Positions 2,723 through 3,357 of a DNA stretch of 38,648 nucleotides are shown in pieces. The DNA lies in assembly GCF_002234915.1 (NCBI RefSeq), contig NZ_NEWD01000031.1, forward strand, positions 1 to 38,648, in the 5' to 3' direction. The position numbers and the translations under genes were made by a program. The stretch is from Bifidobacterium vansinderenii. GTDB taxonomy: Bacteria > Actinomycetota > Actinomycetes > Actinomycetales > Bifidobacteriaceae. A model generated the notes under the pieces. The model did not search any database. It was not told the DNA's origin and was given only the letters and a program-made list of their open reading frames with translations. Numbering within the stretch: position 1 is the first letter of the stretch; each line of letters opens with the position of its first letter.

Positions 2723-2786
2723 TACCAACCACTTGGTAGGTTTCTTTGCGCCAGCGCTTGCGCAAATTGCGCGGGTGATCTATGGT
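2723..2786 (+). promoter_or_regulatory. Putative promoter and operators of the small-peptide operon
   Basis: A -35-like TTGCGC (2758-2763) and a -10-like TATGGT (2781-2786) are 17 bp apart, upstream of the first small peptide. Overlapping the -35 is a 20-bp near-perfect palindrome, 2746-2765 (TTGCGC-c-AGCGCT-t-GCGCAA, one mismatched pair). A second inverted repeat, TACCAA-CCAC-TTGGTA, lies at 2723-2738. The arrangement suggests a repressor or activator site; the regulator is unknown. Confidence 0.5.
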
Positions 2787-2838
2787 TAATCATGTCAGCC
2801 AAACAAGGCAGGCAACAAACACAGAAAAGGGAACAGCA

Positions 2839-2958
2839 ATGAACATCAAGAACAGCATGATGCGCGGCCTGGCTCTGTACGGAACTTCCGTGATGGCCGG
2901 CTCCTACAGCAAGGATCTGAACCAGACGGTCATCGATCTGGCTCGCGAATCCCGCTGA
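2839..2958 (+). CDS. Small peptide A, 39 aa, paralogue of the next gene; function unknown
   Basis: The ATG is preceded by AAAAGGGA at good spacing, and TGA is at 2956-2958. The protein starts MNIKNSMMRGLALYGTSVMA and ends in DLARESR. It has a basic N-terminus (K4, R9), a short apolar G/A-rich middle and a charged C-terminal helix-like part. There is no cysteine, no double-Gly leader and no full membrane span. It aligns with the next peptide over the first 20 residues. Differences include synonymous third-position changes (GCT/GCC, CTG/CTC, GGA/GGC), which argues that both are translated. Codons are of the frequent type, suggesting high expression. I do not recognise the family. It could be a secreted or membrane-active peptide, a signal or a small regulator; no transporter or immunity gene is adjacent. 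Confidence 0.75.
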   Translation: MNIKNSMMRGLALYGTSVMAGSYSKDLNQTVIDLARESR

Positions 2959-2965
2959 GCGCAAA

Positions 2966-2979
2966 GACCCCGACGGGTC
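2966..2979 (+). other. Short intergenic hairpin between the two peptide genes
   Basis: GACCC (2966-2970) pairs with GGGTC (2975-2979) around a 4-base loop just after the first stop codon. No T-run follows, so it is more likely a processing or stability element than a terminator. The two peptides are probably co-transcribed. Confidence 0.35.
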
Positions 2980-3066
2980 GCGGATAGATAACCGACGACC
3001 GCAGGGCACCCAAGACTTACAACTGAATACAAAACCGATCAATACTTCAACAACAAGGAGAACATC

Positions 3067-3192
3067 ATGAACATCAAGAAGAGCATTCTGCGCGGCATGG
3101 CCCTCTACGGCGCTTCCACCCTGGCTGCCAACCCGGTTGCCGGCAAGGCTATCGCCGACACCCTGGCCGACCTGCAGAACGACGCTCGCTGA
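3067..3192 (+). CDS. Small peptide B, 41 aa, paralogue of the previous gene; function unknown
   Basis: The ATG lies 6-7 bp after AAGGAG; TGA is at 3190-3192. It starts MNIKKSILRGMALYGASTLA and ends in LADLQNDAR. The pattern shared with peptide A is M-N-I-K-x-S-x-x-R-G-x-A-L-Y-G-x-S-x-x-A, followed by a variable middle and a short amphipathic, acid-then-Arg end (DLARESR / DLQNDAR). The spacing to the first gene is 108 bp with its own ribosome site, and two terminators follow. The duplication, strong ribosome sites, optimal codons and tight terminator context favour a real, well-expressed two-peptide operon. The role is unknown. A two-component bacteriocin is possible, but the usual processing and export genes are absent here. 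Confidence 0.78.
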   Translation: MNIKKSILRGMALYGASTLAANPVAGKAIADTLADLQNDAR

Positions 3193-3224
3193 GCTCGATA
3201 ACGCAAGGATCTGACTCAATCTGT

Positions 3225-3240
3225 AAGGCTTCGGCCTTTT
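3225..3240 (+). terminator. Terminator-like hairpin with TTCG loop
   Basis: AAGGC-TTCG-GCCTT (3225-3238) ends in four T, 33 bp after the second peptide stop. The stem is short but the tetraloop is stable. It may attenuate rather than fully end the transcript, since a stronger terminator follows. Confidence 0.6.
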
Positions 3241-3322
3241 GATCAGAGCCGCTGAAACGCTACCGGTCCACAAGACACGGTCGGGCGCACAGTTAGGCGA
3301 GATCGCAAATTCGCCCTTGTAA

Positions 3323-3357
3323 AGGCCTCCCGCGGAAACCCCGCGGGAGGCCTTTTT
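3323..3357 (+). terminator. Strong Rho-independent terminator
   Basis: A 13-bp perfect stem (3323-3335 with 3341-3353), a 5-base loop and then a T-run (3353-3357). It ends the small-peptide transcript. The 80 nt between the two terminators (3241-3322) are unassigned and could be the 3' part of a processed RNA. Confidence 0.92.

Follow-up and report, generated by a model that had tools for sequence, protein, structure and literature searches.

Two short open reading frames in the window, the 38,648-nucleotide stretch of Bifidobacterium vansinderenii DNA analysed here, belong to a small-protein family that is undescribed as far as our searches reach. The family is real and under purifying selection, as judged from substitution patterns, and its specific promoter operators, taken as exact copies in the genomes searched, are confined to positions before small-protein genes. 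These two results are firmly grounded in sequence, unlike the function. For the latter we favor, with a probability of about two in five, the reading that the small proteins are strongly translated cytoplasmic effectors under carbohydrate-signal control and that the window pair is one unit of a multigene family.

Small protein 1 (ORF1, 39 residues) is encoded at positions 2839-2958 and small protein 2 (ORF2, 41 residues) at 3067-3192, both on the forward strand and both starting with ATG; in the list of open reading frames, ORF1 also carries an earlier in-frame ATG at 2782. The two proteins have 18 identities over 41 positions in a single pairwise comparison (E = 1e-10), and their local alignment scores 83 against a best of 45 among 10,000 shuffles. 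This bears out the tandem of paralogues of about 40 residues claimed in a preliminary description of this DNA, and we regard the pair as genuine paralogous small-protein genes behind one predicted promoter. By eye, good ribosome sites lie 6 nt from the ATG of both genes, GGGA (2829-2832) for ORF1 and AAGGAG (3055-3060) for ORF2, in agreement with the strong sites described before. The neighbourhood looks unremarkable: it includes genes for a tRNA-Ser, a LuxR-type regulator, an alpha/beta hydrolase and a protein that no Pfam model matches, and a PfkB-type kinase gene lies on the opposite strand. Scanning the window with Rfam gave one tRNA. Farther along, positions 10056-38023 hold several very large ORFs (1,000-1,900 residues), next to glycosyltransferases, in which ricin-type or LGFP-like stretches recur and some parts resemble glycosidases; by eye, these are probably cell-surface glycan enzymes.

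The genome contains a second array on contig C66. Its identity to the window copy is 94% in the promoter block, 89% in ORF1 and 94% in ORF2, compared with 67% for the spacer between the ORFs and 36% for the far upstream flank. Most of the differences between the two copies of the genes are at third codon positions (7 of 10 and 5 of 7). The C66 array continues with two more paralogues, and the same contig has two single paralogues. A divergent paralogue is located on contig C21, and a profile search counts nine family matches in this genome.

Codon adaptation was calculated with 12 ribosomal genes of the same genome as reference and ten other genes for comparison. It reaches 0.70 in ORF1 and 0.82 in ORF2, while the ribosomal genes, themselves the reference set, span 0.65-0.83 and the ten other genes 0.27-0.61. 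Among 284 forty-codon stretches of those ten genes, the ORF1 value is reached by 17.6% and the ORF2 value by 3.5%, so that the frequent codons proposed earlier are well supported for ORF2 and only modestly for ORF1. Codon use resembling that of ribosomal genes is shared by protein 2, the C66 array and the C21 member, and less so by protein 1 and the two single C66 paralogues.

Conserved homologues are found in related genomes, so that the lack of homologues named in the preliminary description as a refuting result did not occur. A profile search with alignment A2 detects the family in 32 of 189 Bifidobacteriaceae genomes and in two of 16 genera, namely in all nine genomes of the window's genus and in 23 of a second genus. 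A wider profile gives 34 of 189, and the two additions are weak. Borderline matches in G056 (E = 2.8e-4) and G071 (E = 0.035) were left out of the 32, and neither genome has the LacI regulator described below; the G056 protein resembles a divergent type from a GH28 locus, and the G071 match is probably due to chance. In a class-wide profile search of 394 genomes, a sample drawn evenly from a larger group in which rare relatives outside Bifidobacteriaceae could be missed, only the window's own genome matched. All 30 loci returned from a collection with species names are from Bifidobacterium, including B. callimiconis, tissieri, catulorum, saimiriisciurei, primatium, simiarum, callitrichos, aesculapii, and stellenboschense, most of which we take to come from monkeys.

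The listed family proteins have 37-44 residues and ATG starts. They share the N-terminal segment MxxKxSMxRGLALYGASxM, and the C-terminus is variable save for a final Arg, which is present in 55 of the 55 correctly framed rows of alignment A3; several divergent types end in Lys. No Pfam or NCBIfam model matched the small proteins, which agrees with the earlier statement that no named family fits, and across Pfam, NCBIfam, PHROGs, PADLOC and PDB the matches were weak and limited to one to three members. Alignment A3, which also served as input for AlphaFold2, includes one wrong-strand row (L038:1498-1617), as do the family-database scans. We found no paper naming the family or its setting, in a literature search that covered few subscription journals and thus gives weak evidence for the family being unpublished.

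Pooled pN/pS values of the homologues, obtained from overlapping pairs of very short genes, range from 0.12 to 0.66. The lowest belongs to protein 2, followed by protein 1 (0.33), eight second-genus proteins (0.42), the fourth array gene (0.44) and the third array gene, whose group P3 mixes paralogues. All lie below one, the pattern expected of purifying selection. In one single pair, ORF1 of the window and of G001, there are two nonsynonymous and zero synonymous differences.

A second subfamily, with the motif NYCADNM or AYAADNM, is present in eight of 189 genomes; in five, namely G002, G004, G005, G006, and G007, it lies within or next to the arrays of the main family. Its NYCADNM members at L110 (5224-5337) and L111 (5198-5311) share the LacI-type operator and the promoter signature. 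Divergent members of the main family occur at loci L090 to L094; the L090 locus has GH28, GH88, GDSL lipase and LacI genes and is apparently a pectin-use region. G006 carries two whole-array copies of equal score in opposite orientation (contig C1, 102060-104781 and 227027-229748). This assembly has 9% contamination, and the doubling is either a true duplication or an assembly effect.

Upstream of ORF1, all on the forward strand, the window contains a compact promoter block. A signature search places the element GACACGCCG, which begins the conserved promoter signature, at 2700-2708. It is followed by the imperfect palindrome ACCAACCACTTGGTAGGT at 2724-2741, a possible second operator; the type A operons of relatives carry similar upstream sequences, such as ACCAACCGATCGGTAGGT and ACCAACCAACCGGTAAGT. 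The 20-bp palindrome TTGCGCCAGCGCTTGCGCAA, located by exact-pattern search at 2746-2765, is the putative operator. It contains the likely -35 hexamer TTGCGC (2758-2763), separated by a 17-nt spacer from the likely -10 hexamer TATGGT (2781-2786), which lies 5 nt before the element ATGTCAGCC, as in relatives. The promoter overlapped by a 20-bp palindrome that had been described is recognizable, as read by eye; a consensus promoter scan did not list the promoter at 2758-2786. The order of elements is shared within the window's genus: GACACGCCG, a palindrome such as ACCAACCRMTYGGTAGGT, TTGCGCCAGCGCTTGCGCAA including the -35 hexamer, the 17-nt spacer, the -10 hexamer and ATGTCAGCC.

Exact patterns were used for the operator searches. 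The TTGCGCCAGCGCTTGCGCAA pattern occurs at 11 places in seven of the nine genomes of the window's genus, each of them 69-165 bp upstream of a family gene, and the remaining two genomes have degenerate copies. Among 189 genomes, 10 contain the bipartite signature GACACGCCG-N(68-97)-ATGTCAGCC, with 15 sites in total, and its reversed control gave no match. Each of the 15 sites is followed by a small-protein gene at a distance of at most 200 bp; in two cases, both from the second genus, this gene belongs to the second subfamily. The AGCGCT centre of the window palindrome suggests that its regulator could be a LacI protein.

At the downstream end, a terminator hairpin is predicted at 3321-3355 of the forward strand, with an RNA folding energy of -32.3 kcal/mol (z = -6.9) and a following run of Ts. 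A consensus scan of the window listed no terminator, perhaps because the stem extends into the T tract. Of the two terminators proposed earlier, the other one (3207-3250) is weak (z = -2.4) and has no clean T tail, and the region is better read as having one.

In the second genus, the main putative operator is TTCTGAAACCGGTTTCAGAA or a close variant, placed over the -10 hexamer. Its core TGAAACCGGTTTCA occurs at 16 sites in 14 of the 23 family-bearing second-genus genomes, which were those searched, and all 16 are at most 200 bp upstream of a small-protein gene, two of these being of the second subfamily. By eye, 15 of the 19 loci L071-L089 have a variant site of type AACCGGTT further upstream, towards lacI where this gene is adjacent. 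A palindrome at the promoter and a similar site by a linked lacI are features of LacI-regulated genes, and we classify the second-genus operator as LacI-type, its binding being predicted.

A LacI gene is divergent from the small-protein gene and within 600 bp of it in 19 of the 23 second-genus genomes. The remaining four retain the gene where adjacency is lost, 1.8 kb away in G065, 22 kb away in G038 and on another contig in G080 and G119. With at least 57% identity, the regulator occurs in 31 of the 32 genomes that have the family (23 of the second genus and eight of nine of the window's genus) and in 0 of 157 others, where absences rest on at most 11 candidates scored per genome; since the genomes are related, these are not 31 independent events. 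The next matches, at 48-50% identity, come from four genomes that lack the family. At locus L079, the LacI protein shows the customary helix-turn-helix and periplasmic-binding-type domains and matches solved LacI, PurR and CcpA chains. In the G096 assembly (contig C1, 1094926-1095948), the LacI orthologue has one in-frame TGA.

In the window's genome, the orthologue is encoded on contig C66 at a distance of about 25 kb from the second array. In the window's genus this gene has TGAAACGATTTCA or a near form upstream of itself, unlike the window palindrome. One type of single-copy paralogue carries TGAAAYCGRTTTCA, by eye between -35 and -10, in seven of seven loci read. Given the TGAAACGATTTCA-type site before the LacI gene itself, this paralogue, and not the window pair, is likely the target of the LacI orthologue in the window's genus. 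A different paralogue type carries TTGTGAGCGCTAACAA in each of three loci, a site that agrees at 13 of 14 positions with the AraQ consensus TGTGAGCGCTCACA as given in an excerpt of PMC4746261. Through this one paralogue type, the arrangement resembles the global regulons of the bifidobacterial LacI-type regulators AraQ and MalR1. The window palindrome differs, having only the AGCGCT centre in common with their sites, and its exact form is found only before this small-protein family. A divergent family type lies in the carbohydrate locus with GH28, GH88 and LacI genes mentioned above. The genome G003 retains the type A promoter in a degenerate form, without the LacI orthologue.

Taken as effectors under carbohydrate-signal control, the small proteins would work as follows. 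Repressors of the LacI family, responding to a sugar or to one of its metabolites, would bind the operators, and the proteins would be made in large amounts only with the sugar signal present. The least certain part concerns the products themselves. Each would fold as a short two-helix element, the conserved N-terminal segment may bind and tune a partner common to the paralogues, for instance a transporter or enzyme, and the variable C-terminal helix may give each paralogue its own specificity, as in Escherichia coli SgrT. The pointer to a sugar signal is the regulator family alone, and the partner is a guess by analogy with SgrT. AlphaFold2 predicts helices at residues 2-21 and 23-40 of protein 2 with a mean pLDDT of 78; the pTM of 0.33 means that the model does not give the arrangement of the helices.

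SgrT is a 43-residue protein encoded in single copy within the small RNA SgrS. It is reported to interact, as a small regulatory peptide, with the glucose transporter EIICB-Glc. The likeness to the present family, drawn from description, lies in comparable size and in a carbohydrate-response small protein acting on a larger partner, here proposed; the difference is that the bifidobacterial genes form operon arrays behind LacI-type operators.

The strongest competing explanation is that the arrays encode a multi-peptide leaderless bacteriocin, or a secreted set similar to phenol-soluble modulins, controlled by sugar and acting on the membranes of competitors. Arrays of two to five related leaderless ORFs of 37-44 residues fit this idea, as do the codon use of the arrays, the third gene, which diverges faster between species (pN/pS 0.66 in a group that mixes paralogues), and the confinement of the family to one bacterial family in the searches run. 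Leaderless bacteriocins of two peptides and of three to four peptides are described in the excerpt of PMC6131525, and the tandem of related leaderless short ORFs recalls aureocin A70 and garvicin KS therein. Those listed in that excerpt have net charges of +4 to +7. The small proteins range from -1 to +3 with a mean of +1.5 and contain zero Trp (55 proteins, wrong-strand row excluded), which sets them apart from aureocin A70 and garvicin KS as described there. In the same 55 proteins, the hydrophobic moment compared with shuffled sequences is unremarkable in the N-terminal half (z = 0.12) and weak in the C-terminal half (z = 1.24), so that they do not resemble the clearly cationic, commonly Trp-rich or amphipathic peptides of that class.

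We compared the neighbouring genes of 44 loci that overlap in part. LacI is the only recurrent neighbour common to the two genera, and no exporter or immunity gene recurs across them beside the small-protein genes, a further difference from the multi-peptide systems in that excerpt. An MFS transporter gene, which could be an exporter, adjoins the arrays in four genomes of the window's genus (L007, L060, L065/L066, and L067). MacB/FtsX-type ABC permease genes lie within 10 kb in seven mapped second-genus loci (L075, L077, L078, L081, L082, L085, and L087; Pfam assignment for L078 alone) and in none of the window's genus. Near many arrays of the window's genus there is also an AP-endonuclease-like gene, named by eye (clusters 2 and 29, partly wrong-strand ORF calls). 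The lower charge and the MFS neighbour pull the odds of a bacteriocin in opposite directions, and on balance we consider it unlikely. The membrane-active peptide pair put forward in the preliminary description is likewise weakened by the low charge, the lack of Trp, the absence of a clear amphipathic moment and the lack of a constant ABC exporter or immunity gene, and it keeps the MFS gene beside four arrays in its favor. The low charge, the missing Trp and the weak amphipathicity, together with the codon use and the fact that no signal peptide or leader is evident by eye, argue for cytoplasmic effectors.

We see a smaller chance still that the divergently encoded LacI is bound by the small protein, or by a cleaved fragment of it, and that this relieves or strengthens repression. 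The co-occurrence of the two genes (31 of 32 against 0 of 157 genomes), their divergent arrangement, and the occurrence of exact TGAAACCGGTTTCA only before small-protein genes in 14 genomes, with the AACCGGTT variant towards lacI, would suit such a pair. Against it, the LacI can be aligned from end to end with ordinary members of its family, and the alignment takes in the Arg and Asp-Asp stretches, which we assign to the effector site. The usual ligands of LacI regulators are sugars or nucleotides, and the family is not known to serve as a peptide receptor. Pheromones of the Phr/SHP type have a secretion signal, a cleaved C-terminal signal peptide and a cognate regulator encoded beside them. 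Compared with these, the small proteins have no signal peptide or leader by eye, and their conserved part is N-terminal and the C-terminus variable; one of 56 rows matched the PhrK model, weakly (E = 0.14). In addition, the copies in the window's genus are mostly under other operators.

Very little weight falls on a leader-peptide or RNA-level device, in which a leaderless upstream ORF and the small ORFs would act by being translated and not through their products. The idea draws on the predicted leaderless ORF MSAKQGRQQTQKREQQ (2792-2842, forward strand), which begins with the conserved ATGTCAGCC and whose stop overlaps the start of ORF1 (ATGA). In 13 of 13 examined loci having ATGTCAGCC, a -10-like hexamer (TATGGT, TATCGT, TATAGT or TATCAT) lies exactly 5 nt before it, which places the predicted transcript start on or beside the AUG; in one further locus, GTG replaces the ATG of ATGTCAGCC. 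Length and frame of the ORF vary: the ATGA overlap with the first gene is present in the window, L070 and L110, the ORF is fused in frame to the first gene in L061, L064 and L069, and it has an early stop in others. We conclude from these comparisons that its start is conserved and its product is not. Actinobacterial leaderless transcripts and small proteins are likewise reported from mycobacteria in the excerpt of PMC4633059; relative to what is described there, the start in the window is predicted and precedes a second, Shine-Dalgarno-led ORF. Several observations speak against an RNA device. ATGTCAGCC is absent from G003 and from the main operons of the second genus, the window has no further same-strand gene before the terminator, both ORFs are conserved at the protein level, and the leader folds barely better than shuffles (z = -1.5).

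A type I toxin or other mobile-element toxin, to which the small hydrophobic N-terminal segment and the multiple copies could point, is scarcely credible given the dedicated operators, the lack of any tblastn match of protein 2 to phage and plasmid collections, and database matches limited to one member in PADLOC (E = 0.02) and scattered PHROGs entries of unassigned function (best E = 0.01). Viral contigs contained 25 stretches with the pattern and no confirmed relative, and with the negative tblastn result for protein 2 we reject a phage, plasmid or viral origin.

The reading as cytoplasmic effectors under carbohydrate-signal control is thus supported by the conservation and purifying selection, the exclusive operators, the LacI co-occurrence, the AraQ-like TTGTGAGCGCTAACAA, the carbohydrate locus of one family type, the codon use of ORF2 and the C66 array, and the two-helix model. 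Against it stand the lack of a shared neighbour except LacI, the low pTM, the different TGAAACGATTTCA site, the genome G003 without LacI, the unexceptional codons of ORF1 and the single paralogues, and the tandem, diverging paralogues, which are also bacteriocin-like. Among the options named in the preliminary description, which preferred none of them, the abundant small regulators appear best supported, on account of the LacI-type operators and of the ribosomal-like codon use, the latter in ORF2 and the C66 array; the signalling peptide is a less favored possibility.

A bolder extension, which we think improbable, would be a new bifidobacterial signalling module. In it, a LacI regulator would have as its dedicated, essentially only regulon a set of proteins of about 40 residues that signal through it or act as the output of its sugar sensing, and, while the lineage was moving into its hosts, copies of the module would have been placed under several LacI operators.

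Annotation frequently overlooks proteins of fewer than 50 residues, and a regulator has been defined for few of them. For this bifidobacterial small-protein family, sequence alone yields the family, its putative operators and, in one genus, an accompanying regulator, so that the signal that drives the small proteins in gut bifidobacteria becomes a directly testable question. If our reading is true, LacI regulators in these genomes would also control something besides catabolic genes.
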